32,154 bases of DNA. Source: Desulfobulbaceae bacterium (lineage in GTDB: Bacteria > Desulfobacterota > Desulfobulbia > Desulfobulbales > VMSU01). A program made the position numbers and the translations under genes. The stretch covers positions 1-32,154 of the forward strand of contig JAQUKQ010000022.1 in assembly GCA_028718985.1 (NCBI GenBank), written 5' to 3'. This document shows positions 401-27,097 of the stretch, piece after piece. Numbering within the stretch: the stretch's first letter is position 1; the number at the start of each line of letters is the position of its first letter. The notes under the pieces are model-generated. The model was not told where the DNA came from and searched no databases. It saw only the letters and a program-made list of their open reading frames with translations.

Positions 401-1354
401 TCAGCGGAAAAATCCAAGAATATACTTCAGTGCCGGGAATAGGATGCAAAAAATGAGTAGACATTTAATTCCTCGAGATGGCATGAATTTTTGGAGGCGA
501 GCTCCGCAGTACATTCCTGCAAAACCGCCGATGCCGAAGAGGAAGCCTAAAAGCCAGTCTGGGGCGATGGCCATCCTCGGGTAGTAGGGCGCTAGAAACT
601 GGTAGAAGGCAACTCCTGCAACAGAGGTGACAAAGGTACCCATCAGTGCAGCGCCAGCGACAGTGTAGACGGGGAGTTCGAAAAAGCTGACAAAGAAGGG
701 AGCCATGATCGCTCCACCCCCAATCCCGTATACCCCGCCTGCTATGCCAACCACAAAGCTTAGTGCCGTGACCCCCAAGGTCGGAATGTCAAATGCTTGT
801 CCGTAAAAGTCATAACGAACATGGGTGAGGCTGCACTCTTTGACAGCGACTCTTGGCAGGGTCTGGTGCCCGGCCGATTGGCGGTGCTGCTGTTCTTTTC
901 GATATCGGGAGACCAGGGCTTGAAATTCTTCCTCCGTGGAGACATTCTTCCTTTGTCTCTTGTTGAGTAAATCGCACATCAAGCGGCTGCCGATATAAAA
1001 AAGGAGCAGGCCTGCGAATAGGCTAAAGTTTTTGGGGTTGGGAAGGTAGCGGATGCGGATGATTGCCCCCAGCAGAACTCCGGGGAGCGTCCCGATAATT
1101 ACTACCCAGGTCAACGGCCAGATCATGCGCCCCTCCTTGATGTAGCGATAGACTCCGCTGGGGATGGCGATGATGTTGAAAAGTTGATTGGTGGCACTGA
1201 CTGCAGGACTGGTAAAGCCGAGAACGGTGACCTGAAATGGCAGCAGAAGAAAGGCCCCCGAGACTCCGCCCATGGAGGTGAAAAAAGAGATGATAAAGGC
1301 GACTAGCGGCGGCAGCCAAGGGGAGACGTTGATGCCAGCTGAAGGAAAATACAT
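401..1354 (-). CDS. TauE/SafE-family membrane permease (anion/sulfite export type)
   Basis: A 317-residue polytopic membrane protein. It shows the internal duplication of the TauE/SafE (DUF81) family: an N-terminal half with SMGGVSGAFLLLP near residue 28 and a C-terminal half with GGVYGIGGGAIMAPFF near residue 208, each a glycine-rich loop followed by membrane helices. A hydrophilic loop of about 50 residues (about 135-185, with RKEQQHRQ) separates the halves and is probably cytoplasmic. Family members export sulfite, sulfoacetate or related small anions, or take up sulfur compounds; the substrate here is unknown. It starts 10 bases after the stop of the CDP-alcohol phosphatidyltransferase gene on the same strand and has no good ribosome-binding site of its own, so it is likely translated from that transcript. 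Confidence 0.85.
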   Translation of the reverse strand: MYFPSAGINVSPWLPPLVAFIISFFTSMGGVSGAFLLLPFQVTVLGFTSPAVSATNQLFNIIAIPSGVYRYIKEGRMIWPLTWVVIIGTLPGVLLGAIIRIRYLPNPKNFSLFAGLLLFYIGSRLMCDLLNKRQRKNVSTEEEFQALVSRYRKEQQHRQSAGHQTLPRVAVKECSLTHVRYDFYGQAFDIPTLGVTALSFVVGIAGGVYGIGGGAIMAPFFVSFFELPVYTVAGAALMGTFVTSVAGVAFYQFLAPYYPRMAIAPDWLLGFLFGIGGFAGMYCGARLQKFMPSRGIKCLLIFCILFPALKYILGFFR

Positions 1355-1364
1355 TGGACACGAA

Positions 1365-2606
1365 TTATCTTAGAGGCTTACGCCAAATAGGTGAAAAAAC
1401 ATAGACGATGATCGGGGCGGCAAAGAGGGTGGCTGCAGTGTGTGTCGCCAGTGCCAAGATCAACCCTGATGTCAGTGATGCAATGATTTCGCTGCTGCGT
1501 ATGGTGGGTATGACTTGGTTGAAGTGGATCCAGTTGATGCGGAAGGAGCACATCAGGATAGCGGCAGCAACCAGTATCAGCAGGCTGAGTGATGGGTTTG
1601 GAAAGAGGACGGAGGAGATGACCACCCAGGCCGCTGCCGGGCTGGGAAGACCGCGGAAGAAGCCTTTAGGGGTTCGGTCCTTGGAGCGACCGTAGTCATA
1701 GAGTCGGAAGAGGGTGGCCGCGACGTAGAAAGCTCCCAGGCTCATGGGAAGTATTGACCAGCCAGCTGTGGAGCAAACGATAACGGCAGGGGCCAAGCCA
1801 AAGCTTACCATGTCGGCAATGGTGTCGAATTGTTTGCCAAAGGTGCTTGATACCCCGAGCTTGCGGGCCACGGCACCATCGCTCAAGTCGAAAAACATGG
1901 CGGCGAAACTAAATGCCACGCCAAGGCCAATTTTGCCTTGCGTGGCGCACCAGATGGCGGTAACCCCAGCCCCTAAATTGCTGAGGGTAAGAATCTGGGG
2001 AATCGCTACCAGGATTGAACTCTGAATTTTGGCGGGTAGAATCCGGACCCCGACAGAGATACTGGCTAAGCCTACGGCCATCCAAATCAGGGCATTGCCG
2101 CCAATATTCAAAAAAGGTGTGGCGCAGAGAACGGCGAAGGCGAAGAAGATTTTTGCGATGTTTTGGGCTAAAGCTTTGAATTTGCCGAAGTGGTTGGCAC
2201 CTTCGACCTGGACGCCGCGTAGCAGGGTGGAAGCTAAATCAAGAAGGAAGAGGATCAGGAGGCCAAGATGGTCAATTGCCCCCCAGAACAAGCCAAGCGT
2301 GCTGTAGGTGATCAGTTTGTCGGCAAGGGGATCAAGAATCTTGCCTTGATCACTCACCTGCCCAGTTTCTCTGGCAAGTGCTCCATCGACGACATCAAAC
2401 AGGATGACAGTGCTTACGGCGACAATGGCGAAGGCCCCGATGACCTGCCAAGGGAGGCCGGTATGAACTGCCAGTTCTTGGCGATAGAACCAGGCCAGCC
2501 AGCCAGGAACGAAAAAAAAGAGGCGGCCCAGGGTGATTTGGTTTGGGGAGATGCCAAGGTCGTAGCCGACCCAGCGCACAAATCTGACAAAAAGTCTTTT
2601 ATGCAT
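1365..2606 (-). CDS. Tandem CDP-alcohol phosphatidyltransferase (PgsA-like + PssA-like domains)
   Basis: A 413-residue membrane protein with two complete CDP-alcohol phosphatidyltransferase signatures, D-x2-D-G-x2-A-R-x8-G-x3-D-x3-D. The first runs from D71 to D96 (DVVDGALAR, then G88, D92, D96). The second runs from D240 to D265 (DLSDGAVAR, then G257, D261, D265). All metal-binding and catalytic residues of both copies are present. The first half resembles phosphatidylglycerophosphate synthase-like enzymes. The second carries FRGLPSPAAA near 317-326, typical of CDP-diacylglycerol-serine O-phosphatidyltransferase (PssA). Single enzymes of the family are usually 180-260 residues, so this is a fusion. 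It probably makes anionic or amino phospholipid headgroups at the inner membrane; which alcohol each domain uses cannot be read from the sequence. It shares a strand with the downstream TauE-like permease, 10 bases away. No strong ribosome-binding site is seen before the ATG. Confidence 0.85.
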   Translation of the reverse strand: MHKRLFVRFVRWVGYDLGISPNQITLGRLFFFVPGWLAWFYRQELAVHTGLPWQVIGAFAIVAVSTVILFDVVDGALARETGQVSDQGKILDPLADKLITYSTLGLFWGAIDHLGLLILFLLDLASTLLRGVQVEGANHFGKFKALAQNIAKIFFAFAVLCATPFLNIGGNALIWMAVGLASISVGVRILPAKIQSSILVAIPQILTLSNLGAGVTAIWCATQGKIGLGVAFSFAAMFFDLSDGAVARKLGVSSTFGKQFDTIADMVSFGLAPAVIVCSTAGWSILPMSLGAFYVAATLFRLYDYGRSKDRTPKGFFRGLPSPAAAWVVISSVLFPNPSLSLLILVAAAILMCSFRINWIHFNQVIPTIRSSEIIASLTSGLILALATHTAATLFAAPIIVYVFSPIWRKPLR

Positions 2607-2742: not shown

Positions 2743-4251
2743 TTACCAAGGCGCTTTGACATGGATCTGTTTCATTGATTCGCGAAACAAACCATGCCGG
2801 TAGGTGACATTTAATGTTGCAATGTAGGAACCAGGGCTTTGATACGTATGTCGAGGGCTTAATGTGTTGGCGACATCACCGTCGCCGAAATCCCATTGGA
2901 CGGAGATGGGGGCCGGGCCAGTATCGATGATGGCGTGGAACGTTGTGGTTAGTGGGGCTGCTCCGGAACTTGGCTCGACGGTGAAAGAGACTGGCGGGAT
3001 CTCTTTCTGCTCGCCGGACTTGCTGACGGTTTGTTTTAGGTTGAGCAGGCCGAAACCGTCAAAGCCGCTGACTTGCGTCGGGACAAAACGATTTTCGAGG
3101 GAACCGTCACCAAGCTGGCCGTAATTGTTCAGGCCCCAGGCCCAAACAGAGCCGTCAGCCTTAGTCGCTACACTGAACATGGCCCCAGCCGCAATGCCGG
3201 TAACGGCCCGCAGTCCTTCTATCTTTACAGGTTGGTCATGGGAAGTGGTTGTGCCCAGACCCAGTTGACCGAAGTCGTTGACTCCCCAGGCCCAGACCGT
3301 CCCATCGGTTTGCATGGCTAGGGAGTGCTGGTCGCATGTGACGGCGATGATGTTGTTGAGGCCATGTACGACTGTTGGTTGGGATGAGTTGGTGTGGCTA
3401 CCGTTGCCAAGTTGGCCATCGCGGTTGTAGCCCCACGACCATATCTCACCGGTCGAACTTAAAGCGATAGTGTGATTCGATGCCGCAACTCCGGTCAGGC
3501 AGGCGGAGAGATTGGCTCGCGCCGGTTTAGTCTGGTTTGGGCTAATGTCGTTGCCGAGTTGGCCGAAAGAGTTTTTGCCCCAGGCCCAGAGGGAGCAATC
3601 GAAGGTAAAGGTGAAGATAGAGGATTGGCCGAGAGCAATGCCTGCCACCCTGTCCAAGGCGGGGAGTTGTGTAGGGGTAAGTCCATTGTCTTGACCCCAG
3701 AGCCAGAGGGTGCCGTCGTCTCGGATGGCCATTCCGGTGCCGGCATTCAAGGCAATGGCGTTGATGTGGTTGAGTCCTTTGATCTTTTCTGGTCTGGAGT
3801 GGTTAGCGGTGGTGCCGTTGCCTAATTCGCCAAATTGGTTGGAGCCCCAGGTCCAGACGAAGCCTTCCCGGTCAAGTGCCATCGAGTTGGTGAAACCGGC
3901 ACTGATAGCCTTGATAGCGGGTAGGCCTTGGACTTGAATGGGTGCGGTCGAGTATTGGAGGGAACCATCGCCCAGTTGGCCTTGATCGTTAAAGCCCCAA
4001 GTCCAGACAGTGCCGTCATCGGCCAAGGCCATGGCATGGGCACCTCCGGCGGCAACGGTCGTGCTCGTTGTCGATCCGGTGGCCAACAGAGGGAGAAAGA
4101 TGGCGATGAGCAGCGCGAAGGAGGCGCAGAGCGTTTTGCTCGGGGCGCTTATCAAAAAAAGGTCTTGGCGTGGCACGATACGTTCAGGGCGGAAAGGAAC
4201 AATGGTGATCTTGTGAAACCTCGTAGTACCTGTCGGGTGGCACATTTCCAC
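2743..4251 (-). CDS. Exported RCC1-repeat beta-propeller protein with C-terminal PKD domain
   Basis: A 502-residue protein. A hydrophobic segment at about 42-57 (CASFALLIAIFLPLLA) looks like a signal peptide, preceded by an unusually long N-terminus; the true start may be downstream of the ATG at 4251. Residues 65-400 hold seven RCC1-type repeats built on W-x-W-G-x-N-x2-G-Q-L-G-x-G, at about 83, 133, 183 (shortened), 222, 271, 320 and 370, enough for one closed seven-bladed propeller. Residues 422-498 form a PKD domain with VQWDFGDGD and HTYQSPGSYIATL. Exported RCC1/PKD proteins are usually envelope or secreted adhesion or protein-interaction modules; no enzymatic motif is visible. The ATG lies 8 bases after the PilZ gene stop, suggesting co-transcription and possible translational coupling. 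Confidence 0.88.
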   Translation of the reverse strand: MEMCHPTGTTRFHKITIVPFRPERIVPRQDLFLISAPSKTLCASFALLIAIFLPLLATGSTTSTTVAAGGAHAMALADDGTVWTWGFNDQGQLGDGSLQYSTAPIQVQGLPAIKAISAGFTNSMALDREGFVWTWGSNQFGELGNGTTANHSRPEKIKGLNHINAIALNAGTGMAIRDDGTLWLWGQDNGLTPTQLPALDRVAGIALGQSSIFTFTFDCSLWAWGKNSFGQLGNDISPNQTKPARANLSACLTGVAASNHTIALSSTGEIWSWGYNRDGQLGNGSHTNSSQPTVVHGLNNIIAVTCDQHSLAMQTDGTVWAWGVNDFGQLGLGTTTSHDQPVKIEGLRAVTGIAAGAMFSVATKADGSVWAWGLNNYGQLGDGSLENRFVPTQVSGFDGFGLLNLKQTVSKSGEQKEIPPVSFTVEPSSGAAPLTTTFHAIIDTGPAPISVQWDFGDGDVANTLSPRHTYQSPGSYIATLNVTYRHGLFRESMKQIHVKAPW

Positions 4252-4664: not shown

Positions 4665-5789
4665 TTAGCGCATCAGTAAAATTCCTTCGCGGCGCAGCAT
4701 GGACAAAGGGTCGAGCAGGGGGAGTTGACTCCCATCCTCCAGACAAGCTGTTCCTGCGAGATCGCCATTTTGTTGTTTGATGAATTGGTGCATGATATGT
4801 TCGGTCTTTTGAATTTCATCGCAGGCAAGTGCCCCATGCCAGTTGCCATTGGAGATAATGAGCAGCGTGCTGAACTCTCCATGCGGAATCTCTGGCAGCT
4901 CATGCCCTTGCGGAAGGATAAGCGGCAGGTCCAACTCTTTTAGTGTCCGTTCCGGCACTAAGGCCAGGCTCCCATTGAAGAGGCTGGAAAGCTTGAGGAG
5001 GAATCTGGAAAAATCTCTTAGTGGCACGGTACCGTTCTGGAGATAGGTCTTGGCGGCGCTTGCTTTCATGGGCCGTATTAAGGCGATGACGCTGCTTTGG
5101 ATGGCAAGGGGCACGCCGCTGACGGTCAGAAGCCTGATTTTCGTCGGCGGGCAGGAGTGATCATACTCTGCGGCCTTGGGCGTGTGTTGTTGTATCTCAC
5201 TTTCTTTATCGATGTCTCCTCGCAGGATGGCCGCTACTTTTGGAGAATCAAGCCAGAGCTCAAACAGGTGCTCTAGCGCGCGCCCGGTCTCTCCTGCGTC
5301 GGCTAAAGAGTTTTTGAATTCTTCAATGTGCTGGTGTAGGATGAGATCATCGTTTTCTTGGGCTTCGTTGTCTTGCTCCGTTGTAACAGGTTGCGCTGTG
5401 TGGCTACTTGCTGGCACGGCGGCTTTGGCGGGCGATTTTTGCTGGATTTTTTCTTTTAAGGTATTGAAGCGGGCAAAAAGGCTTTGGAATATCTCATCCT
5501 CTTTTGGTCGGTCGTCGTCTAAGTCTTCATAGATGTTGACGATATGGGCCATCGCCTCTTTCAGGAAGTCAATTGTTTCAGGCGGAGAGGCGCCACGGTT
5601 TTTGATATAACCCAAGACATTGGCTGCCATCACCAGCATGGCATGGGTGGCCTTGCGGTTGGTGAAGTGGTCGAGCAGACATTGGAAGGCGGATTCCAGC
5701 TGGTCGGCCCGTTTGGGGCTCAGTCGCCAGTCTTGGGCAATGATTTCTGCTTTGAGCCGCAGGATGGAATCTTCAATGGACAGTGTCAC
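4665..5789 (-). CDS. Two-part protein with C-terminal CheW-like domain
   Basis: A 374-residue soluble protein of uncertain function. Residues 1-115 are largely alpha-helical (RLKAEIIAQDWRLS, then a run of amphipathic helices) and I do not recognise a named domain. Residues 116-215 are low-complexity, acidic and alanine-rich linker. Residues 218-370 follow the CheW pattern: a first strand and helix (LLTVSGVPLAIQSSVIALI), a central strand (STLLIISNGNWHGALACDEI) and the closing segment GTACLEDGSQLPLLDPLSML, which parallels the usual ending with LLD and a hydrophobic helix. CheW domains couple chemoreceptors to CheA kinases. The homology is weak by eye, so this is a tentative call. It heads the transcription unit with PilZ and the RCC1-PKD gene; the gap to PilZ is 51 bases. 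Confidence 0.6.
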   Translation of the reverse strand: MTLSIEDSILRLKAEIIAQDWRLSPKRADQLESAFQCLLDHFTNRKATHAMLVMAANVLGYIKNRGASPPETIDFLKEAMAHIVNIYEDLDDDRPKEDEIFQSLFARFNTLKEKIQQKSPAKAAVPASSHTAQPVTTEQDNEAQENDDLILHQHIEEFKNSLADAGETGRALEHLFELWLDSPKVAAILRGDIDKESEIQQHTPKAAEYDHSCPPTKIRLLTVSGVPLAIQSSVIALIRPMKASAAKTYLQNGTVPLRDFSRFLLKLSSLFNGSLALVPERTLKELDLPLILPQGHELPEIPHGEFSTLLIISNGNWHGALACDEIQKTEHIMHQFIKQQNGDLAGTACLEDGSQLPLLDPLSMLRREGILLMR

Positions 5790-13105: not shown

Positions 13106-14032
13106 ATGATCGATGTAAGTCCCAAGTTTAACTCCTTGCGGTATGCTCTGGCCGAAGGGTTTTTGTTCGGTAATCCTGATGTGTTGCAGCGAGTTTTCGA
13201 TAAAACGGTGCCCAAAGGTGATGTTGCCGAAGTGGCTCGGGCTGCAGGGATCATGGCCGCCAAGCATTGCAGCGATCTGATTGTTTTCTGTCACCCTATC
13301 CCGCTTGATTGGATCGAGATCTCTCTTGAGCCGCACGAAAGGGGGATTAGGGTGTCCGCTGAGGTGCGGTCGGTTTGGAAAACCGGGGTCGAGGTCGAGG
13401 CGATCACCGCAGTTACCGGTGCTTTGCTCAATGCCTACGACATGTTGAAACCGTTGGATCAGGAGCTCTCATTCGGTGATATTCGGGTGGTGAAGAAAAA
13501 AGGGGGCAAGAGTGACTTCCAGGATCGTTTTGCCGTGCCGGTAAAAACGGCGGTTTTAGTGATGTCCGATTCTACTTTTGCCGGGACACGGCAGGATAAG
13601 TCTGGAAAAGTGATTGTTGACTATCTTGCCAGGCAGCCGGTCGCGGTGGATTGTTACGAGATATTACCGGATGATCGGGATGCGATTGCTCGTCGCCTCA
13701 AGCAGCTGGCCGACGAGGAAAAATATCAATTAATTTTTACGACCGGCGGCACGGGACTTGGGCCGCGGGACGTTACCCCGGAGGCGACGTTGAGTGTCCT
13801 CGAACGGACGGTGCCGGGGATTGCCGAGTCTATCCGCAAACATGGCAAGGATCGGACGCCCTACGCCATGCTCTCACGCGGCGAGGCAGGGCTGCGTGGT
13901 GATTGCCTGATCATTAATTTGCCGGGGAGCTCAAGGGGGGCGGAGGAGAGCCTACAGGCGCTTTTCCCCGGATTGCTGCATATCTTCCCGATGATGCAGG
14001 GCAAGGGCCATGAGGGGGGTGTGTGCAAGTAG
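13106..14032 (+). CDS. Bifunctional MoaC-MogA/MoaB fusion
   Basis: A 308-residue fusion. Residues 1-150 are MoaC (cyclic pyranopterin monophosphate synthase): MIDVSPKFNSLRYALAEG, the PKGDV lysine loop, HCSDLIVFCHPIPL, GVEVEAITAVTGALLNAYDMLKP and KKKGGKSDF. Residues 152-308 are MogA/MoaB-like (molybdopterin adenylyltransferase): VLVMSDSTFAG, FTTGGTGLGPRDVTPEAT and INLPGSSRGAEESL. Together they would make the pyranopterin ring after MoaA and activate molybdopterin with AMP before MoeA inserts molybdate. Such fusions are known in several bacterial groups. AAAGGA lies about 8 bases before the ATG. The fusion starts 32 bases after moaA and ends 20 bases before moeA. Confidence 0.95.
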   Translation: MIDVSPKFNSLRYALAEGFLFGNPDVLQRVFDKTVPKGDVAEVARAAGIMAAKHCSDLIVFCHPIPLDWIEISLEPHERGIRVSAEVRSVWKTGVEVEAITAVTGALLNAYDMLKPLDQELSFGDIRVVKKKGGKSDFQDRFAVPVKTAVLVMSDSTFAGTRQDKSGKVIVDYLARQPVAVDCYEILPDDRDAIARRLKQLADEEKYQLIFTTGGTGLGPRDVTPEATLSVLERTVPGIAESIRKHGKDRTPYAMLSRGEAGLRGDCLIINLPGSSRGAEESLQALFPGLLHIFPMMQGKGHEGGVCK

Positions 14033-16340: not shown

Positions 16341-16775
16341 TCAGGCAGCCATGACCGGCCAGCAAAGGTCATATTGGGCAGGGTCGAGGAGTACCTGTTT
16401 AGCAAGTTTTTTGGTAGGGTTGAGGACAACCGGTCCTAAGAGGTTCGCGGTCATTGCCTCTGGTTGTCCTTTGGGGATGGTCAGGATGACCAGGATCTCC
16501 AGTTCACTTTGGCTGGCAACCTGCAGTTCCTGCTGGCAATGGGGCGGGATGGCTGGTTGATACGCTTGATTGATGATCGTAGGCTGAATGACGACAAAGG
16601 CGAGGTCTGGATTGCCTACTGACTGTAGCCACCAGAAGGCAGATTTCGGGCCATGGGGCAGAAGAATGAATTGGCGTTCCTCGGCAAAGCCCAGCAAAGG
16701 GGTGGTCATGGTGATGATTTTATCCTCGTCGATTTCGAGGTTGCCGAATCTGTTTGTGCGAATGATCGTTGTCAT
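16341..16775 (-). CDS. fliW: Flagellar assembly factor FliW
   Basis: A 144-residue cytoplasmic protein that binds flagellin and, when free, the regulator CsrA, so linking flagellin translation to its own export. Family landmarks are FGNLEIDEDKIITMTTPLLGFAE near the start, an aromatic stretch (FWWLQSVGNPDLAFVVIQP), the ILVILTIPKG strand and TANLLGPVVLNPTKKLAKQVLL in the second half. csrA lies 73 bases upstream on the same strand, the classic pairing for the FliW-CsrA partner switch, and both follow flgL. Flagellin itself is not in this window. The start ATG is consistent with the family length of about 140-160. Confidence 0.95.
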   Translation of the reverse strand: MTTIIRTNRFGNLEIDEDKIITMTTPLLGFAEERQFILLPHGPKSAFWWLQSVGNPDLAFVVIQPTIINQAYQPAIPPHCQQELQVASQSELEILVILTIPKGQPEAMTANLLGPVVLNPTKKLAKQVLLDPAQYDLCWPVMAA

Positions 16776-16848
16776 GAGCTGGCCTGCAGGGTGTTGGTGT
16801 CACTGCTTGGCAGAAGAGGATGGCTCTTTGCCCTTACCTGTTTTTGAT

Positions 16849-17097
16849 TTAAATCTTACGGGCGGTATTTTGCTCGAGGAGCTGGGTGATGTGGTCCAGG
16901 TCGGTTGGAGGCTCGCTTGCCGCCGCTTTTCGGTTCTCATCCTGAATGCGGGCCAGAACTTCTTCCCGGTGAACGGCAACATGGCTAGGGGCTTTGACGC
17001 CCAATTTGATTTGGCCGCCTTTTATTTCGAGAAGTGTAACGGTGATGTGCTCATCAATGACAATGGCCTCTCCAACCTTTCTGGTCAGAATCAGCAT
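16849..17097 (-). CDS. csrA: Carbon storage regulator CsrA
   Basis: An 82-residue RNA-binding regulator. The N-terminus MLILTRKVGEAIVI and the core IKGGQIKLGVKAPSHVAVHREEV are the typical CsrA signature, with the RNA-contacting residues near the first strand and in VHREE. The C-terminal tail (about 60-82, DHITQLLEQ) is longer than the E. coli protein and fits species that pair CsrA with FliW. It binds GGA-containing leaders to block translation, flagellin mRNA being the main known target in such species. AAGGAGG lies about 9 bases before the ATG. It follows flgL by 55 bases and precedes fliW. Confidence 0.97.
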   Translation of the reverse strand: MLILTRKVGEAIVIDEHITVTLLEIKGGQIKLGVKAPSHVAVHREEVLARIQDENRKAAASEPPTDLDHITQLLEQNTARKI

Positions 17098-17152
17098 AGG
17101 AAAACCCTCCTTGGTTGCCTAGGTGTGTACGGTGGCGGCAACTATACAGCGC

Positions 17153-19159
17153 TTACCGTAAATAATCAACCAGGCTGAGCTGCATGGTCTTCGAGGCAGA
17201 GGAGAGGGCGGCTTCGTAGGCGGTTTCCTTGGCTTTCAGCTCCAGGATTGCCTTGACCATATCGGTGTCTTGCACCTCGGAGAGGTTTTCCTTGGTGGTA
17301 AGGATCATGTTGCTATAAATCTGGCTCTGAATGTCGATCCGATTCGCCCGGGAGCCGAAGTCTGAGACTTGGCTGGTCAGGTTCTCCATCAGGGTGTCCA
17401 GATTGCCAAGCGATTGATTGATTCCTTCATTCTGCATGAATTCGAAGCTGACGCCGGTCGCTTTCAGGAAGTTGCTGCCGTCTTCTGTTAGAGCGATGGT
17501 GTAGCGAGGGTTATCGGGGTAGCTGGCGTTGTCGGCACTGATCGACAGATGGCCATCGGTCGTCCAACTGGCGCTGACATGGGGAATGCCATTAATCTTG
17601 GCGGTGACGCTCTCCAAGGTGTCGACTGTGGGGTCAACGCTAATGGTCATTGCTGTCAAGGTTGGCGGGGAGGTGTCGTGGTCGAGAACGGAGACTTTGA
17701 ATGTCCCCGCCGTAAACAGAGCTTCGCCTGCTAAGAGTGTTTCCGGCTCAAGGCCTGTGGCGTTACTGTCTAAGGTGACGTTGGTGGCGGTAGCGGAGTG
17801 GATACCGGTTATGCTGGTGAACTTGTTGCCGCGCAGGGAATCTTCCAGGGATTTTAGCGTGCTGAAGATGGTGGTGTCCATGACGCCGGACTTACCGTTT
17901 TCACCAACGGTCATGGTGTTGGTTTTACCGATCTTGATCTGTAAGTCGTTGACCCGATCACCGGCATAACGCACGGTGCCGCTTCGCTCATGGATGCTGA
18001 AGACTTCGATCTTGCCGTCATTTGGCGTGTCACCTGCTTCGCCGCTTGTAGCCGTGCCGCCCGCCAGGCCGAGAGGGGTTAAGGCGGTATCGGTTGCAGC
18101 GCTTGTCTCGATGATGAACTTACGATCGGAGCGCAGTTGCAGAGAGCCGAAAGAGACTTGCTCTCCGGCGACACCCGAGCCCGCTCCTGTGAGTTGGGTG
18201 ATGGTTTCGCCATTGGCGGAGGTCTCAACATGGATGTTGCGGCCGTCGATGGCTGTGAGCTGCAATATCCCATTTTGGTCGCGAGTGGCTGTGAGGCCCG
18301 TTTGGGTGGTCTTGGCGTTGATGGCGTTGAGGATGGTGTTGTCAGTGTCTGTGGCGATGATGTTGGTGGGGGACGCAAAAATATCTACGCCGTTGATTAT
18401 TAAGTCGCCGGTATCGAGGATCCCTGTGCCGAGCGCCACAGGTCCACTGGCTTTTGCCTCAGCTGAGACGATGATTGCTTTGACGCCGGTCTTGTTTGCA
18501 ATGTCGTTGACGACCTTGGCCTTGGCCTCTGCCGAGGCGTCGGCGTATACGTCTGAACCCGTATCGTTACTGGAGCCAAGGACGGCAATGCCGTTGATCG
18601 TCAGGTCTCCTGTTGCGATTTGATAGCCGGAGGATGCAGGCAGAGGGCCGGAGAGGGTGGCCGGTGCTTTGCCGTTAACCCAATATCCATCTCCCTTGTC
18701 CATCATGAATGGCATCGGTTCATCTGCTGGATAGCCGGTAGTGCGATAGCCACCAAAGATGTATTTGCCGTTGACTTGTGTGTTCGCAAGGGCCACCGCC
18801 TGCTCGTGCATGTTTTTGATCTCTTCGGCGATCGCTTCGCGGTTGGCGGCACTGTTACCGGGGCTAGTGGCTTGAATGGCCAGGGTCTTGGCTCGTAGGG
18901 CCAGATCCTTCATCTGGGTCAGGGCAGATTCGGCGGCGGTGATGATGGTGTTGCCATTCTGAATGTTTTCGGTGAATTGACCCAGTTCGGTGATGACGGT
19001 GCGGAAACGCAGGGCGCTGGCCAGATTAACCGGTTGATCCGACAGTTTGCTCATCTGCATACCGGACGAGATCTGCTCATTGATCTTGCCCATATCAGTG
19101 GTGATTTTGCCGAGATTTGTATTGATCCTCGAATAGATGGTGTTCAGAGTTGTGCGCAT
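17153..19159 (-). CDS. flgL: Flagellar hook-associated protein FlgL (HAP3), enlarged
   Basis: A 668-residue protein; E. coli FlgL has 317 residues. The N-terminal flagellin-like domain is typical (INEQISSGMQMSKLSDQPV, ALRFRTVITELGQF, NGKYIFGGYRT at about 130-139), as is the C-terminal helix (EVQDTDMVKAILELKAKETAYEAALS). The centre holds two Flagellin_IN-like repeats, each starting GDL-x-INGV/I (about 184 and 251) and ending in AIDGRNIHVET-type strands, followed by further beta-rich sequence. These extra domains would face outward from the filament junction. It is a junction protein between hook and filament. It starts 4 bases after the flgK stop, so translation is probably coupled. Confidence 0.95.
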   Translation of the reverse strand: MRTTLNTIYSRINTNLGKITTDMGKINEQISSGMQMSKLSDQPVNLASALRFRTVITELGQFTENIQNGNTIITAAESALTQMKDLALRAKTLAIQATSPGNSAANREAIAEEIKNMHEQAVALANTQVNGKYIFGGYRTTGYPADEPMPFMMDKGDGYWVNGKAPATLSGPLPASSGYQIATGDLTINGIAVLGSSNDTGSDVYADASAEAKAKVVNDIANKTGVKAIIVSAEAKASGPVALGTGILDTGDLIINGVDIFASPTNIIATDTDNTILNAINAKTTQTGLTATRDQNGILQLTAIDGRNIHVETSANGETITQLTGAGSGVAGEQVSFGSLQLRSDRKFIIETSAATDTALTPLGLAGGTATSGEAGDTPNDGKIEVFSIHERSGTVRYAGDRVNDLQIKIGKTNTMTVGENGKSGVMDTTIFSTLKSLEDSLRGNKFTSITGIHSATATNVTLDSNATGLEPETLLAGEALFTAGTFKVSVLDHDTSPPTLTAMTISVDPTVDTLESVTAKINGIPHVSASWTTDGHLSISADNASYPDNPRYTIALTEDGSNFLKATGVSFEFMQNEGINQSLGNLDTLMENLTSQVSDFGSRANRIDIQSQIYSNMILTTKENLSEVQDTDMVKAILELKAKETAYEAALSSASKTMQLSLVDYLR

Positions 19160-19163
19160 AGCG

Positions 19164-21725
19164 TCACCGAATTGTTTCTAGCAGAGTTACCATCATCTCA
19201 TCCGCGGTAGAGATGAGTTTTGCTGCTGCTGAATAGGCGTGTTGAAATTTGATCAGGTTCGACATCTCCTCATCAAGCGATACTCCGGAGGTGGCATCTC
19301 TGATTTCGTTGAGTTGGTCGAATACCAGATTGTTATACTCCAAATCGGAGTTGATACTCTTGCCCTTCAGGCCGATATCGGCGACCAGGGAGTTGTAGAA
19401 GCCGTCCAGGGTGTCGGTCTGTGATCCATGCCCCGTGAATGTGATGTTCTCATCCCCCTGAATATTGGTGATCAACAGGGAGTTTGTGTTGTCACCACGA
19501 AATATTTCGCCAAAGCTATTGATTTTTCCGGCGGCCAGATTGTCCAGGTTGTCGGTGACGGCTTGGTTGAGCCCTATGGTGCCGGCGCTGTGGCCACTGA
19601 AAAAAGTGTTGATGCCGATGGCGGCCAAGAAGTTGGAGGTGTCGTTGCCAAAGGCGAAATTGTGGTTGCCGTCAGGCGTTAAGAGCAGTTGATTGCCAAC
19701 GACGCTTGCGCTTACCCAGGGGGTCGGTGCTGGAACGGTCGGATCGTTAACGGCATTTTTGATACTGTTGTTGATGGTGCTCGCGACGTCATCTAAGGTG
19801 TAAGCCCGGGTCAGGTCTATTTTGACGGGCTGGGCCAGGGCAAGTGAGCCGTTTGTGTTGTAGAGAAAGAGGTCGAAAGTGCCGCCATCGGTTTGCAGGG
19901 TGTCGGCGTAGTCGAGGCCCATGAGGGAGTTGGAGACACTGCCGTTGGTGTAGTCAAAGCTCAGTTTGCCATCGTCAGGGCTCTTATCGACAGCAGCCAT
20001 GCCAGGACCTGCCCAACCTAGTTGCACCAGTTTATTGTCATTAGCACCGCCATCGATAATGATTGGACCATTATGGGAGAAGAGGGCTAGTTCGCCGGTG
20101 TTGTGTGTGGCATCGGCTTTGTAATTGCCAACGGTCAAGCCGATTTTGTCGATAGTGGTGGCGCCAGGGATGCTGCTGAGGTCTGCGATGTCGATTGTTG
20201 ACTCATCCCCCTTGTTCCTGTTTCGTAGGACGATAGAGTTAGCTGGCCCACCGTTGGTGCCGTCGCCAAGGACGGCATCAATCGTGATTTTTGGTATGTT
20301 TGTTTGGGGTGAAGGCAGACCAACATTGTTGTTGTAGTTACTAATAGCGGTATTGATTGTTGCGACAAGATTGTTGGCCAGTGTTGCTGGGTCGGTATCA
20401 TTGTTTGGCAGGGTGGTGCTGTCCACTGTGTAGGAAATAGCGAGACCGTTAATGGTAAAGCTTAGTGTTGAGGCATCTTCTCCTGCTGTCATAGCCGTTA
20501 CGGTACCCCCTGCCACCTGTGTCGTCATCCTGGCCAATACCCCGGCCGAGGCGCTATTGATCGCTTCTGCCGCGTTGGCGGTCTTGCCCATTGCCAAGCC
20601 GTTGATGAGCCCCGATTTGTCGATCCTGCCAATGTCGTGTCCATTGATTGTTAACGAGCCGGCGGCCAAAGTTTCACTGGCGGTGAGCGGGTCGACCGTG
20701 GTGTTGAGGAGAACGGCGTTATCGGCGGACTCGGAGCTGGTCAATTTGTCGGAAAAACTGACCAGCCCTACCCCTTGGCTGTGCTGCTGATTAAACTCCC
20801 GAATGATGGCATTGGCCAAGCCATCCAGGCGGCCAAGGTAGTTGTTCGGGTCGCCCTCTGCCAGTTGGTTGTTGATTTCCATTAAGCCGCCGATTTTGCT
20901 GCCTAAGATAGTACTATTGTCGAGGGCGGCGCGTGTCTCCTTGCCGGTCGACTGAACATTGACCCATTGCAGGGTATTGTCCTTCCAGTCTAGACTCCAC
21001 GCCTCGTTGTTATTGACCAAGGAGTGCCCGTCAGACATCATGATGGTGTAGGCCCCGCTGCCTGACTCATAGTAGTTGATGTCTAGGTAACCACCTAGAT
21101 CTTTCATCAGATTGTCTCTGGTGTCCCGCAGGTCATTTTGCTGTTGCTGGGAGGTTTCTGAAGTGGTGATTTTAACATTCAGATCGGCAAGTTGTTTGGT
21201 AAGGGAGTTGACTTCACCAATGGCAGCTCGTAAAGCAACCCCGGTCTCGTAACGGGTTTGGGACAACTCGTTATTCATACTATGCAGCTGCTCATTTAAG
21301 AGCTGCGCCTGTTGGATAACTGTCTGACGGTTAGAGCTAAGCTCTGGATTGTTGCTCAAAGCCTGCCAAGACTCAAACAATTTGCTGAGGAGATCGTTGA
21401 CCGCAAGTCCTGGAACTTCGTTGAAAGAGGTTTCGATGACCCGCATGGATTGTTGTTGGGTGGTAAGGTTGTTGATGGTGGAATTTTGGCTCATCAGCCG
21501 CTGAACCATAAACAGGTCGTATTGTCTGCTGATGCTGTCGCCGCGGACGCCATTTCCTTGAAAGCCGATGCCGGTAGGGGTGGCGACTGAAGTGGTCAGG
21601 CCAAGGACCTGCCGTGAGTACCCCGGCGTGTTAACGTTTGCAATATTATGGCCGGTAACGGTGATAGCTGACATGTGAGTCAGCAGGGCTTCTTTGGCAA
21701 TATTAAGGGTGGCGGAAACACTCAT
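19164..21725 (-). CDS. flgK: Flagellar hook-associated protein FlgK (HAP1), enlarged
   Basis: An 853-residue protein; enterobacterial FlgK is about 550. The N-terminus is diagnostic: ITVTGHNIANVNTPGYSRQV and the region with QNSTINNLTTQQQSMRVIETSFNEVPG. The C-terminus ends with GVSLDEEMSNLIKFQHAYSAA and the terminal helix, as in rod/hook/HAP proteins. The centre has extra beta-rich segments, including a Flagellin_IN-like start (GSLTINGHDIGRI, about 350) and a run of T/N/D-rich strands up to about 700. These may form decorated outer domains. FlgK is the first junction protein on the hook. GGAG lies about 7 bases before the ATG. The gene follows flgN by 2 bases. Confidence 0.95.
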   Translation of the reverse strand: MSVSATLNIAKEALLTHMSAITVTGHNIANVNTPGYSRQVLGLTTSVATPTGIGFQGNGVRGDSISRQYDLFMVQRLMSQNSTINNLTTQQQSMRVIETSFNEVPGLAVNDLLSKLFESWQALSNNPELSSNRQTVIQQAQLLNEQLHSMNNELSQTRYETGVALRAAIGEVNSLTKQLADLNVKITTSETSQQQQNDLRDTRDNLMKDLGGYLDINYYESGSGAYTIMMSDGHSLVNNNEAWSLDWKDNTLQWVNVQSTGKETRAALDNSTILGSKIGGLMEINNQLAEGDPNNYLGRLDGLANAIIREFNQQHSQGVGLVSFSDKLTSSESADNAVLLNTTVDPLTASETLAAGSLTINGHDIGRIDKSGLINGLAMGKTANAAEAINSASAGVLARMTTQVAGGTVTAMTAGEDASTLSFTINGLAISYTVDSTTLPNNDTDPATLANNLVATINTAISNYNNNVGLPSPQTNIPKITIDAVLGDGTNGGPANSIVLRNRNKGDESTIDIADLSSIPGATTIDKIGLTVGNYKADATHNTGELALFSHNGPIIIDGGANDNKLVQLGWAGPGMAAVDKSPDDGKLSFDYTNGSVSNSLMGLDYADTLQTDGGTFDLFLYNTNGSLALAQPVKIDLTRAYTLDDVASTINNSIKNAVNDPTVPAPTPWVSASVVGNQLLLTPDGNHNFAFGNDTSNFLAAIGINTFFSGHSAGTIGLNQAVTDNLDNLAAGKINSFGEIFRGDNTNSLLITNIQGDENITFTGHGSQTDTLDGFYNSLVADIGLKGKSINSDLEYNNLVFDQLNEIRDATSGVSLDEEMSNLIKFQHAYSAAAKLISTADEMMVTLLETIR

Positions 21726-21727
21726 GG

Positions 21728-22219
21728 CTAGACTCCGCAGCTGATATAGCTTGGCATGTTTTTGCCTCGTGCCAGGGAGCGGCCCGGGATGCGGTAGGTG
21801 TTGTCAGCCTCGGCGGGTCTGGTGATCAGGGCGATGGCGTCGCTCAAATAGCGCAAGGTATCTTCGGTGAAGCGCTTGTTGATTGTGTTTTTGGTCTGAA
21901 TTTCTTGTCGGACGTTGGTGATTTTAGTTTTGTAGCTGTCGATCAGGCTGGATTGTTCAGGTGTCAGGCTGGTTGAGGCAGGATCTTTACGCAGCGCCGA
22001 AAACGAGCTTTGCAGTGCATCGTCAAGGTAGTGGATCTTGGAGAGGAGGACATCCTTTTGATGGCTTATGCGAAAGAGTTCCTGGGTGCTCATTGTCCGG
22101 AGCGCCTTGCTCTCTTCATGGAGGCTGGCAAGGAGATCTTGGGAGAGCTTGAGGCTGACAGCCAGACCTTCAATAATCTCTTGCCCACTTTTGGTCTTTG
22201 TTTCGCTTGTTGTGGTCAT
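21728..22219 (-). CDS. flgN: FlgN-family flagellar export chaperone
   Basis: A 163-residue helical protein placed directly before flgK, the usual position of the chaperone that delivers FlgK and FlgL to the export gate. The sequence is a long amphipathic helix pair (GLAVSLKLSQDLLASLHEESKALRT, then ELFRISHQKDVLLSKIHYLDD) followed by a helical tail (SLIDSYKTKITNVRQEIQTKNTINKRF), the FlgN pattern. The C-terminal 25 residues are basic and likely disordered. Sequence identity in this family is low, so context carries much of the call. It ends 2 bases before flgK and starts 60 bases after the flgJ stop. There is no flgM between them. Confidence 0.85.
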   Translation of the reverse strand: MTTTSETKTKSGQEIIEGLAVSLKLSQDLLASLHEESKALRTMSTQELFRISHQKDVLLSKIHYLDDALQSSFSALRKDPASTSLTPEQSSLIDSYKTKITNVRQEIQTKNTINKRFTEDTLRYLSDAIALITRPAEADNTYRIPGRSLARGKNMPSYISCGV

Positions 22220-22279
22220 TGTTGCACCTTCTTTGGGTGGACGATGATTCTCATATCCGAAAGAGAAATCATCGCCTTG

Positions 22280-22585
22280 CTATTTTGTCGGGGGTGTTAT
22301 CCCGCCTGAGAGTTGTTTGTAGAGGACATCCGCCAGGCCAAGCCCTCTGCCACTGGCGATCTCTTTGGATAATCCTTCATCGTACATTGACTGATACATA
22401 TCCTCTGCGTAACCGCTGGTGAAGAGGCCGTCTTTCGGGACGGTCTTGCGCATGGCGGTCAGCATTTGCTGGATAATAATGGCCTCGAAATTTTGACAGG
22501 CCTCTTTCAATTTCCTCTCTTTAGGTGTATCGGTTGTTTGCCCAATTTTCTTGAATGGAAACGAGGGGCTCTGTTGAATCTGCAT
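22280..22585 (-). CDS. flgJ: FlgJ N-terminal rod-binding protein (no muramidase domain)
   Basis: A 101-residue protein matching only the N-terminal rod-binding domain of FlgJ: LKEACQNFEAIIIQQMLTAMRKTVPKDGLF and SGYAEDMYQSMYDEGLSKEIASGRGLGLADVLYKQL are in family order. E. coli FlgJ has about 313 residues with a C-terminal peptidoglycan hydrolase; that domain is absent here, which is normal for many deltaproteobacteria and others, where a separate hydrolase opens the wall. It helps cap and assemble the rod in the periplasm. It starts 14 bases after the flgI stop on the same strand. Confidence 0.93.
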   Translation of the reverse strand: MQIQQSPSFPFKKIGQTTDTPKERKLKEACQNFEAIIIQQMLTAMRKTVPKDGLFTSGYAEDMYQSMYDEGLSKEIASGRGLGLADVLYKQLSGGITPPTK

Positions 22586-22599
22586 GGCGTGGCTCTCAA

Positions 22600-23721
22600 C
22601 TAGATGATGGTTAATTCAGCTTGCATGGCACCTGCGGCCTTGATGGCTTGAAAGATGGCGATCAAGTCACGGGGGGCAGCCCCGACTGAGTTTAAGGCGC
22701 GGACCAGTTCCCCCAAGGTGACGCCAGGGGATAACTTGACCAGTCGATTGCTCTGTGGAGAGCCATTTTTCGCTGCAATGTCTGCGGTCATTTGTCTGAC
22801 CATGTCGTCGGTCAAGACTTTGCCGACCATATCTTTGCCAACATTCTGATTCGGGTCGTTGGCCACCTGGATGCTCAGGGTCCCATGGGAGAGGGCCAGC
22901 TGGCTGATGAGGACATTTTCTCCCATGACGATGGTGCCGGTCCGCTCATCGACCACTACTTTAGAGATCGCGGCTGGCGTGACATCGAGATTTTCGAGAT
23001 CGGCCAGGAGGACAATCTCCTGCTGGCGGTATTTGTCTGGCACCACCACCGTAACGGTGGAACCATCCTTAGCGGAGGCATAGCTGCTACCAAGGAAACT
23101 GTTGATCGCCGTAGTCAGCCGCGAAACGGTGGTGAAATCGGCAGAGTTCAGGCTTAAGGTGATTTCGTTTTTCCCGCCGAAGGAGACGGGCACCTCTTTT
23201 TCGACAGTGGCGCCTGCCGGGATGCGGGCGACGGTAAGGTGGTTCTCCTGGCTACCATCCGGCGGGTTGCCGGTCACCTTGAAGCCTCCGATACTGACTG
23301 GGCCTTGGGCAATGGCGTAGGTCTCCTCGTCCAAGCCTTTCAGGGGGGTCACCACCAGGGTGCCGCCCTGCAGGGAAGAGGCGTCGCCGAGCGAGGAGAG
23401 GGTGACATCCAGGCTCTGTCCGGCCTTGATGAAGGGGGGCAGGGTGGCGGTGACCATGACCCCTGCGACGTTTTTCACCTTCAGGTCTTTTTCGTTTACA
23501 CTCATGCCGATGTTCTTGAGCATGTTGGCTAAGCCCTGGGTGGTGAAGGCGGATTTGTTGCCGTCACCAGTGCCGTTTAGGCCGACAACCAGACCATAAC
23601 CGACCAGTTGGTTGCCACGTACGCCTTTGACTGAGGCCAAATCTTTGACGAGAACGGCTTTGGCCTGAGTTGCCAAACTTAGCAGGGCGATAACGAGAAG
23701 GGTTGTTTTTATGATCCGCAT
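22600..23721 (-). CDS. flgI: Flagellar P-ring protein FlgI
   Basis: A 373-residue periplasmic protein that forms the P-ring around the rod in the peptidoglycan layer. It begins with a signal peptide (MRIIKTTLLVIALLSLATQAKA). Family landmarks follow: VKDLASVKGVRGNQLVGYGLVVGLNGTGD, FTTQGLANMLKNIG, DVTLSSLGDASSLQGGTLV, VDERTGTIVMGENV and the C-terminal LVRALNSVGAAPRDLIAIFQAIKAAGAMQAEL. AAGGA lies 6 bases before ATG 23721; the upstream frame from 23742 adds seven residues and lacks such a site. A sigma-54-type promoter lies at 23794-23808, so flgI probably starts its own transcript leading to flgJ, flgN, flgK and flgL. Confidence 0.97.
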   Translation of the reverse strand: MRIIKTTLLVIALLSLATQAKAVLVKDLASVKGVRGNQLVGYGLVVGLNGTGDGNKSAFTTQGLANMLKNIGMSVNEKDLKVKNVAGVMVTATLPPFIKAGQSLDVTLSSLGDASSLQGGTLVVTPLKGLDEETYAIAQGPVSIGGFKVTGNPPDGSQENHLTVARIPAGATVEKEVPVSFGGKNEITLSLNSADFTTVSRLTTAINSFLGSSYASAKDGSTVTVVVPDKYRQQEIVLLADLENLDVTPAAISKVVVDERTGTIVMGENVLISQLALSHGTLSIQVANDPNQNVGKDMVGKVLTDDMVRQMTADIAAKNGSPQSNRLVKLSPGVTLGELVRALNSVGAAPRDLIAIFQAIKAAGAMQAELTII

Positions 23722-23793
23722 GGCGATTCCTTGTCTAGGCAAAGGGTGGTTGGGGTATTTTCTGCTTTGCTGCGGTCGTGCTTTATCGTTAGA

Positions 23794-23808
23794 GCAATTG
23801 ATATGCCA
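23794..23808 (-). promoter_or_regulatory. Sigma-54 -24/-12 promoter upstream of flgI
   Basis: The minus strand reads TGGCAT-N5-TTGC at these positions, matching the sigma-54 consensus TGGCAY-N5-TTGC. Transcription would start about 12 bases past the TTGC, near 23782, giving a leader of roughly 60 bases to the flgI ATG. An identical pattern lies upstream of flgF, in the same operon and orientation, which argues against chance. The activator that would drive it is not proven. Confidence 0.82.
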
Positions 23809-23917
23809 GTGACCGGGAGAATAAAATAGAGCAGTGATCCTGTGGTGTTGCGTCGAGCCAGTTTGCCTTGAGGCTGTGGCTGGGCAATAAATTCCTAGCA
23901 GGGCATAGGTGCCGGGT

Positions 23918-24610
23918 CTAGAACGGCCAGATCACATCCAGGGCGTTCGTCAGCCAGCCGGGTTCTTGCTTGGAGGCCAGGGCGCCAGTGCCGTTATACT
24001 CAATCCTGGCGTCGGCAATATTTGAAGATAGGATTGAGTTGTCTTGAGTGATGTCCGAGGGCCTGACGATACCGGAGAGGATGATGTGCTGGGTCTCGTT
24101 GTTGACCCGAATTTCTCGGTATCCTTGAATCATCAGATTGCCGTCCATGGCGATGTCGACCACTTTGGCGGACATCGTGGCGGTGACGGAGCTGCTGCGG
24201 TCGGTATCGCCCTTCCCTTCAAAGGAGTTGCTCAGGTTAGCGTTGATGCTGGTCAGGGAGGGGGTGTGCGTGCCGCCGTTGGTGAGCAAGGATTGTTCAA
24301 AGCCAAACAACGAGGCGATACCGCCGGTGAAGCTTGAATCACGAGTGGTCTTGGTGTTGGCGCTTTTCTTACCATTTGAGGTTTCGACGATCTTGACCAG
24401 CACGATGTCGCCGATCCGTCTGGCCCGGTTGTCCTGGTAGATATTTTTGGACTTGGCCGAGTAGATCGATCCCTCGCTCGGTTGTGCCATCTTCTCCTCG
24501 ACCATGGGCAGGCTGTAGCGCTCCGGGATAGGTGGCGGTACTTGCGAGGTTTGGTTGACACAGCCAGTTAGGGCGCATAGCAGGGTGATGGCGGGGATAA
24601 CGTGCTTCAT
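23918..24610 (-). CDS. flgH: Flagellar L-ring lipoprotein FlgH
   Basis: A 230-residue outer-membrane lipoprotein that forms the L-ring. The signal peptide ends in lipobox ALTGC with acceptor cysteine at residue 17. Family landmarks are GSIYSAKSKNIYQDNRARRIGDIVLVKIVE, the central serine/glycine-rich stretch, MSAKVVDIAMDGNLMIQGYREIRVNNETQHIILSGIVRPSDI and the closing VARIEYNGTGALA-type strand (ADARIEYNGTGALASKQEPGWL). AAGGAG lies 6 bases before the ATG. It sits 100 bases after flgA and 196 bases before flgI, with the sigma-54 element of flgI in between. Confidence 0.96.
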   Translation of the reverse strand: MKHVIPAITLLCALTGCVNQTSQVPPPIPERYSLPMVEEKMAQPSEGSIYSAKSKNIYQDNRARRIGDIVLVKIVETSNGKKSANTKTTRDSSFTGGIASLFGFEQSLLTNGGTHTPSLTSINANLSNSFEGKGDTDRSSSVTATMSAKVVDIAMDGNLMIQGYREIRVNNETQHIILSGIVRPSDITQDNSILSSNIADARIEYNGTGALASKQEPGWLTNALDVIWPF

Positions 24611-24710
24611 GATCTGCTCCTTGTGCAGAGGGCTTACGCTGCGAATGGAAATTTAAAGGAACTTGCCTGTTCTTTTCTCAAACGGAATGAAAAAGCCAAA
24701 GTGGTTACGG

Positions 24711-25445
24711 TTAGAATTGAGTCTGGACGGTGCTTGGTCCAATGATTGTTGCGAAAATCTCCTTGCGGCTCATCAGGTTTTTGACCTTGATTATCTCGCC
24801 TTTGGCACCGGACTTCAAAACTCGGCCTGGCACGCTTACCGTCAGGAGATCATTGGTGGCCAGGATAGAGATGATGTCGCCGCGTTTGACCAGTTCTGGT
24901 TCCTTGAGGGTTTTGCCATAGAGAATAGATCCTGCCTGCAGCGTTGTCGTGAGCTCCTTGCCGATCGCGGCGGACTCGTCGGTGATGATATCTGGCCCGA
25001 GCATGGTGATCTCTTGCCGCACGCGTTTGATGTGCTGGGCGAGGATGATGCTTTTGCGGGGCAAGGCGCTGGTCGTGCAAATCACGTCTCCGAAAAGCGC
25101 GAGGTCTCCACTTAATTTGATTCTCTTTTGCGCAACGCCGTCTACCAAGACATCGGTGATGATCGTTTGTTGACCGAGGGGTTTGCCTGGTTGCAACCCA
25201 GAGATGATTTGGAAATCGAGCGATCCTGTCGGGACGGTGACCGATTGAGGGGTTGCACTGAATTTTTTGACGATAATGTCCTGTTTCGCTAATGCACCCT
25301 TGGTCGTCAGCAGATCGAAGAAGACGTGTTGCAGCTGATCGCCCTCTAAGGTGACTTCGTTTTCCGTTGACCAAGCTGGCTGGCTCGGGAGCAGGTAAAG
25401 CAAAATCAGGCAGAGGCTTGAGAGGGCAAGAGAAAAGCGTTTCAT
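24711..25445 (-). CDS. flgA: Flagellar P-ring chaperone FlgA
   Basis: A 244-residue periplasmic protein required to assemble FlgI into the P-ring. It starts with a signal peptide (KRFSLALSSLCLILLYLLPSQPAWS). The C-terminal two-thirds is the SAF/FlgA domain: RKSIILAQHIKRVRQEITMLG, AIGKELTTTLQAGSILYGKTLKEPELVKRGD, and the closing TVSVPGRVLKSGAKGEIIKVKNLMSRKEIFATIIGPSTV, where SGAKGEIIKVKN is diagnostic. The N-terminal part (28-110) is less conserved. The start is 2 bases downstream of the flgG stop, so translation is probably coupled to flgG, as the ribosome-binding site is weak. Confidence 0.95.
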   Translation of the reverse strand: MKRFSLALSSLCLILLYLLPSQPAWSTENEVTLEGDQLQHVFFDLLTTKGALAKQDIIVKKFSATPQSVTVPTGSLDFQIISGLQPGKPLGQQTIITDVLVDGVAQKRIKLSGDLALFGDVICTTSALPRKSIILAQHIKRVRQEITMLGPDIITDESAAIGKELTTTLQAGSILYGKTLKEPELVKRGDIISILATNDLLTVSVPGRVLKSGAKGEIIKVKNLMSRKEIFATIIGPSTVQTQF

Positions 25446-25447
25446 GA

Positions 25448-26230
25448 CTACCGTTTCAGGGTGTTGGCTATTTCGAGTAACTGGTCGGCCGTGGTTACGG
25501 CCTTGGAGTTGCTTTCAAAGGCCCTCTGGGTGATGATCAGGTTGACCATCTCCTCGGTGACGTTGACGTTTGAGGTCTCAAGAAAGTTTTGGGTCAAGGT
25601 GCCGATCCCGTTGCTGCCGGGGTTAGCCTCGGTGGGTGCACCGGAGGCATCGCTTTCGAGATAGAGATTGCCGCCCTCGCTTTTCAGACCGGCTGGGTTG
25701 ATGAAGTTGTGGAGGGTCAGTTGTACCGACCCTAGAGTCTGCTCGGCCTGATCTTTTGCTACCAACATACCGCCTGAGTCAACATTGATAGTGGTGGTGC
25801 CGGTAGGGATGGCAAATTCCGGCTGCAGGCGATCGCCATTGGCGGTAACAATATAGCCGTCGGCATCTCTTTTGAAGCTGCCGTCCCGGGTGTAATAAGA
25901 TACGCCATCTCGGACGATTTTAAAAAAGCCGTCACCCTGAATGGCCATGTCCAAATCATTGCCGGTCTCGGTGATTGACCCTTGTGTAAACACCTTTTGG
26001 ATGGAGGTGACTCGGGTGCCAAGACCCACTTGCACGCCGGTGGGGACCATGCCACCCGCTACCGTTTCTGCTCCTACCGAGCGCAGGGATTGATAGAAGA
26101 GATCCTCGAACTGGGTGCGGCTCTTCTTGAAGCCACCGGTGTTGACATTGGCCAGGTTGTTGGAAATGACATCCAGTTGTGTCTGTTGGCCGTTCATGCC
26201 GGTGCGGGCTGAGTAGAGGGCGCGAATCAT
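25448..26230 (-). CDS. flgG: Flagellar distal rod protein FlgG
   Basis: A 260-residue distal rod protein, the standard family length. The N-terminal rod motif is [64 protein letters not shown] follows, and the C-terminus [42 protein letters not shown] (here FLETSNVNV) carries the conserved helix. AGGAG lies about 6 bases before the ATG. It follows flgF by 90 bases, with no promoter match in that gap, so the two are probably on the transcript that begins at the sigma-54 site upstream of flgF. Confidence 0.97.
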   Translation of the reverse strand: [260 protein letters not shown]

Positions 26231-26320
26231 GGTGTTCTCCTAAAAAAAATAATTTTGGCGAGCTGGTTGGAAGCGTGGAGTGTCGTTCTTTCCCACAGGA
26301 CTCTGTCCGCTTCATTGGCG

Positions 26321-27049: not shown

Positions 27050-27097
27050 GGTTTCCTCCTTCAATGAGTAATAACTTAGACTTTGGTTGTGACTTCT

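Follow-up and report, generated by a model that had tools for sequence, protein, structure and literature searches.

One fused enzyme appears to make both main membrane phospholipids in a sulfate-reducer-type bacterium

A tandem CDP-alcohol phosphatidyltransferase is encoded at positions 1365..2606 (minus strand) of the window, the whole 32,154-nucleotide stretch of contig JAQUKQ010000022.1 from a Desulfobulbaceae bacterium. The protein is most likely a bifunctional PGP/PS synthase, a reading from sequence to which we give a probability of about 75%. Its N-half and C-half would together provide both enzymes of the CDP-diacylglycerol (CDP-DAG) branch point. The N-half would take the phosphatidyl group from CDP-DAG and place it on glycerol-3-phosphate, its presumed acceptor, to give PGP, which PgpA converts to PG. 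The C-half would move it to L-serine, likewise a presumed acceptor, to give PS, which Psd converts to PE. Both PGP and PS would be drawn from a single CDP-DAG pool. The two separate genes of related bacteria are missing from the genome to which the window belongs (G000; draft, 93.7% complete), and this sulfate-reducer-type bacterium therefore appears to make both main membrane phospholipids by one fused enzyme. One gene would supply two predicted active sites, always in a 1:1 ratio, and pssA is absent from its usual site.

The open reading frame begins with ATG and encodes 413 aa with zero internal stops. CDP-OH_P_transf is the sole Pfam domain family matched and it is matched twice (PF01066; 121.3 bits on the protein over two stretches, cut-off 22). 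Scored separately in a whole-genome search, the halves reach 71.8 bits (N-half) and 66.8 bits (C-half). All parts of the gene lie on the minus strand, with the PgsA-like N-half at 2031..2606 (residues 1-192), the junction at 2013..2030 (residues 193-198) and the PssA-like C-half at 1365..2012 (residues 199-413). The signature D-x2-D-G-x2-A-R-x8-G-x3-D-x3-D is complete in both halves. Motif 1 (2319..2396) reads D71-VV-DG-AL-AR-ETGQVSDQ-G-KIL-D92-PLA-D96 and motif 2 (1812..1889) reads D240-LS-DG-AV-AR-KLGVSSTF-G-KQF-D261-TIA-D265. The sequence-only reading had described two such domains in one polypeptide with full signatures at D71-D96 and D240-D265, and both statements hold. When the residues of the protein were shuffled 200,000 times, not even one full motif turned up.

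Both full motifs are kept, at a spacing of exactly 169 residues, in 12/12 complete tandems of the same type (type A), 11 of which come from other genomes. This count leaves out G001, where the gene is split over two contig ends, and G005, where it carries an in-frame TAA. Because all complete homologues checked hold both motifs 169 residues apart, the fusion is real; a frame error joining two genes, which had been raised as a possibility, is ruled out, as is a chimera. The TAA of the G005 tandem (L007/L016) falls within the region of the first motif and reflects either sequencing error or decay. Substitution counts point to purifying selection on both halves, for example with pN 0.14 and pS 0.65 in the N-half and pN 0.21 and pS 0.57 in the C-half between the window's genome and G002. 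The 413-aa protein is thus real and conserved, and is probably a bifunctional branch-point enzyme assembled from two known kinds.

The best NCBIfam model for the N-half is TIGR00560 (pgsA), with 59.2 bits for the N-half alone and 71.3 bits for the whole tandem protein, below a cut-off of 109.1 that is reached in just 6 of 14 control genomes. A profile built from eight tandems matches S. aureus PgsA (7drj) over positions 21-184 (E 2.5e-8). Residues R130, K142, K144 and Q148 are the same in 12/12 canonical PgsA rows and in E. coli PgsA, which also share the G141-K142-x-K144 stretch. T127 agrees with the 12 canonical rows and is Ser in E. coli PgsA. Position 122 is Leu, against Arg in all 12 canonical rows and in E. 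coli PgsA. Extra PgsA-like single genes (g3, G018, G012, G037; group "other") were considered as canonical PgsA and rejected, because they fall into a clade apart, in whose rows K144 and R130 are missing. In G012, which has no canonical PgsA, an intact lone N-half stops at about the fusion point, and in G037 a lone N-half is broken across two frames.

For the whole protein the best NCBIfam model is TIGR00473 (pssA), with 109.8 bits summed over two stretches (cut-off 107) and its best stretch at residues 207-354. The eight-tandem profile matches the M. jannaschii enzyme MjPSS (7b1k) over positions 199-387 (E 5e-16). By profile alignment, with MjPSS numbered as in excerpts of PMC8633023, D240 corresponds to Asp41, D243 to Asp44, R248 to Arg49, D261 to Asp62, D265 to Asp66 and R301 to Arg101. 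The C-half keeps R248, R301 and all four motif Asp. Of the MjPSS serine-site residues, Asp62, Asp66 and Arg101 are kept, whereas Ser63, Arg104 and Phe105 are replaced by T262, D304 and Y305. Among 13 type-A C-halves D304 and Y305 are invariant, and position 262 is T in 11, S in one and M in one.

Phylogeny and fold comparison point the same way. In a 108-row tree all N-halves group with PgsA and all C-halves with PssA (split support 99), and the PgsA group needs two changes. This tree took in 11 of the 21 other-genome tandems of a phylum survey and left out 18 loci (long-branch or other families), type-B N-halves and 10 canonical rows. The PgsA and PssA labels came from motif patterns, and the groups so labelled turned out to be one-sided (94 and 98) in a first tree, which left out duplicates (L002-L010, L027), rows that were fragments or held a stop (L016, L011, L039, L044) and domains shorter than 100 residues. 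An AlphaFold (AF2) model of the tandem is of only moderate quality (pLDDT 65, pTM 0.50), too weak a basis for dimer geometry. Fold alignment with VIA-align places residues 19-189 closest to S. aureus PgsA (7drk, Z 14.4) and residues 193-368 closest to MjPSS (Z 14.1), where helical-bundle matches may be unspecific up to Z ~13. The top 18 rows are CDP-alcohol enzymes without exception. Foldseek with the same model gave no match at E <= 0.001, the best being 7pow (E 3.4e-3). The earlier assignment of a PgsA-like first half and a PssA-like second half is thereby agreed by HMM, tree, solved-structure profile and fold comparison.

Gene content fits the proposed bifunctional role. The tandem is the only PF01066 match in the window's genome, and its two domains are the only such matches in six family genomes (G000-G004, G006), lying at two contig ends in G001. 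CdsA, PgpA and Psd are present in the window's genome and the PGP and PS steps are missing, and therefore the gap consists of exactly the steps expected of the tandem. The genome also has a PLD-type cardiolipin synthase matching the ClsB model (374.5 bits, cut-off 281). Of the matches C8, C90 and C176, the PLD protein C8 was scored against PRK09428, the PLD-type PS synthase model with a cut-off of 314, and reaches 33.2 bits. Psd is present in 25/28 relatives and in 12/12 genomes of a second set (G018 belongs to both sets), and PgpA in 24/28 relatives. Among the draft tandem genomes, Psd was not found in G003, G004 and G009, and PgpA was not found in G003, G005 and G009. The suggestion that one protein may feed two lipid branches is backed by this gene content.

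Stand-alone genes are largely absent where the tandem occurs. Relatives with single genes share the cluster order ilvB-ilvN-psd-pssA-leuA-asd, and pssA sits between psd and leuA in 4/4 pssA-bearing genomes with a stretch reaching leuA (G023, G025, G035, G238), in a gap of ~880-1060 bases. In 6/6 pssA-less tandem genomes examined (G000, G001, G002, G006, G008, G018) psd adjoins leuA, with a gap of 15 to ~150 bases. Across 41 genomes, a canonical PgsA-clade gene occurs in 1/14 type-A genomes, 0/8 type-D genomes and 16/19 others, the last being genomes that have no complete A or D tandem; canonical PssA occurs in 3/14, 1/8 and 15/19, respectively. Fisher p for type A versus others is 1e-5 (PgsA) and 2e-3 (PssA), values that are descriptive given the relatedness of the genomes. 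The type-D genome G079 lies outside these PF01066 gene counts, and one of the 19 others, G240, carries a C-half fragment at a contig end. The others without canonical PgsA are G012, G037 and G014, of which G014 also has no lone N-half. A survey of separate pgsA and pssA genes, which the sequence-only reading had called for, thus finds both missing from most tandem genomes. G035 keeps the tandem along with both single genes and G238 keeps it along with pssA, and both genomes are possible intermediates. We infer that the fusion came first and that pssA and pgsA would have been lost afterwards, the fusion taking over from the stand-alone genes.

Both halves would be active if the tandem is a PGP/PS synthase, and three other readings compete with this one. 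In the first, which we consider unlikely, the N-half yields not PGP but some different product, such as an alcohol-phosphate lipid of another kind, and PG arises through a ClsB-type exchange of PE ethanolamine for glycerol. The sub-threshold pgsA score, the missing Arg at 122 and the ClsB-model match would suit such a route, and in pgsA null strains of E. coli PG can be formed from PE by ClsB (PMC8027125, in excerpt). The same source reports, however, that the ClsB route in E. coli yields just trace cardiolipin. Canonical pgsA is mostly absent from tandem genomes, and PgpA, whose substrate is PGP, persists in G000, G001, G002, G004 and G006 (partial match in G006), though not found in G003.

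A quite improbable reading, already entertained as an option before, holds that one half alone is catalytic and that the other acts as an inbuilt partner for regulation or dimerisation. Such a silent half would be conceivable in a family of dimers (PMC8633023, in excerpt), and related tandems have the Arg of the AR motif replaced in type-D C-halves and a degenerate N-half in type B. Yet type A keeps every motif residue in both halves (12/12) under purifying selection on both, and the window's genome has zero further PF01066 genes to carry out the missing step. The regulatory-half option is disfavoured because both halves are conserved with all motif residues kept. An acceptor other than serine for the C-half is highly improbable: three residues near the MjPSS serine site do differ (Thr, Ser or Met for Ser63, Asp for Arg104, Tyr for Phe105), but Psd is kept, R301, the equivalent of the essential Arg101, is invariant, MjPSS R104E retains ~50% activity (both MjPSS results from excerpts of PMC8633023), and six tandem genomes have no pssA at its usual site.

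CDP-alcohol phosphatidyltransferases characterised so far are homodimers, and because known relatives dimerise (PMC8633023, in excerpt), pairing of the unlike halves is possible. Most probably the halves associate with one another, or the protein may form a tandem dimer. A tentative and rather doubtful extension is that the halves pair internally as a PgsA:PssA pseudo-heterodimer whose sites are coupled, setting or sensing how CDP-DAG is divided between anionic and zwitterionic lipids; this form would have arisen once and spread in the phylum. Such a pseudo-heterodimer would be a built-in branch-point valve in place of two independent genes.

Tandems of this kind are scattered. In a collection of 84,980 species, a search that detects close relatives only retrieved eight loci at 53-64% identity, all from MAGs labelled Deltaproteobacteria, Desulfobacterales, Desulfobulbaceae or Candidatus Desulfobia. 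Class-wide, 26/257 genomes match the tandem, with 14 of type A, nine of type D and three with a part only (G012, G037, G240). An even draw of the phylum gave 22/395 matching genomes at E 1e-40 or better. The earlier reading had allowed that the architecture might prove common and already characterised. It does recur, but it is uncommon within the phylum, and a search of the open-licence PMC literature found no paper on a characterised tandem or PgsA-PssA fusion, in line with the earlier failure to recall one; annotation in databases is possible.

Type-D tandems (~31-35% identity), from other families of the same phylum, likewise join a PgsA-like N-half to a PssA-like C-half. They differ in the C-half, where the Arg of the AR motif is E, L, D or Q and Ser63 is replaced by Asp. 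All 11 other-genome loci opened in the phylum survey resemble type D in having this Arg replaced and Asp for Ser63, and type A is therefore the version with the full signature in both halves. In three genomes (G048, G049, G157; loci L032, L036, L029) the type-D tandem is the only PF01066 gene and Psd is present; their C-halves carry Glu in place of the Arg of the AR motif, and Asp replaces the serine-site Ser. Either the C-half works there without that Arg, or PS comes from another source. Type-B tandems (L023, L024, L025 and L043, from G024, G012, G011 and G037) have ~500 aa, a degenerate motif in an N-half that differs from type A, and a PssA-like C-half that carries an insertion; canonical pssA is missing from G011 and G024. 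A type-C tandem (L022:3744-5276, G016) has a PgsA-like domain (97 bits) followed by a PssA-like one (98.8 bits), its N-half again unlike that of type A; single pgsA and pssA genes are present in G016 as well.

Free trees are unclear on a single fusion, since type-A N-halves group with type-D N-halves at 91 in the first tree and with PgsA at 83 in the 108-row tree. Constraining all tandem N-halves to one clade improves lnL by 33.6 (p-AU 0.942), and constraining all type A/D/X C-halves improves it by 34.4 (p-AU 0.904), in trees of a quick kind with groups named after a tree had been viewed. One old origin of the fusion is favoured because either grouping raises the likelihood. Lone N-halves, type-D tandems with an altered C-half and genomes with both fusion and single genes offer natural variants for comparison.

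The genomic surroundings are not shared widely. Downstream of the tandem lies a TauE/SafE permease (401..1354, minus strand; Pfam), which was not found beside the tandem in the relatives compared. Upstream is an RCC1-repeat/PKD protein (2743..4251, minus strand), which holds this position also in G001 and G006 only. A lipid-gene operon was considered and rejected, as none was seen at nine loci and neighbours are shared solely within the genus and with G006 (judged partly by eye). Elsewhere in the window, a 374-aa ORF without Pfam match (4665-5789) is conserved in three genus genomes at 47-54% identity. A MoaC/MoaB fusion (13106-14032) adjoins MoaA, MoeA and a MOSC protein and fits the known bifunctional family NF002947. 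A flagellar cluster (FliW, FlgL, FlgK, FlgI, FlgH, FlgA-type, FlgG-type) occupies 16341-27064 on the minus strand.

Among known systems, PgsA of S. aureus (7drj/7drk) and E. coli shares with the tandem N-half the CDP-alcohol motif, D-P-x-x-D-K, R130, GKxK and Q148, and the S. aureus structure is its best fold match. Unlike these enzymes, the N-half is fused to a PssA-like half, scores below the curated cut-off and has Leu for Arg at 122. Type II PssA, represented by MjPSS (7b1k/7pow), is the best match of the C-half by profile and fold and shares the CDP-alcohol motif, SFG, R301 (Arg101) and G-x-P-x-P. The C-half differs in sitting behind a PgsA-like half and in having Asp304 and Tyr305 in place of Arg104 and Phe105. 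The bifunctional membrane protein IPCT-DIPPS of A. fulgidus (4mnd, by its structure title) likewise contains a CDP-alcohol phosphotransferase domain. Its partner domain, however, we take to be the cytidylyltransferase of the preceding step and not a second CDP-alcohol phosphotransferase. The bifunctional synthase of Xanthomonas is reportedly PLD-type and not a CDP-alcohol tandem. It is comparable to the proposed PGP/PS synthase in that a single protein yields two phospholipid end products, cardiolipin and PE (Moser et al. 2014, as cited in excerpts of PMC11150832).
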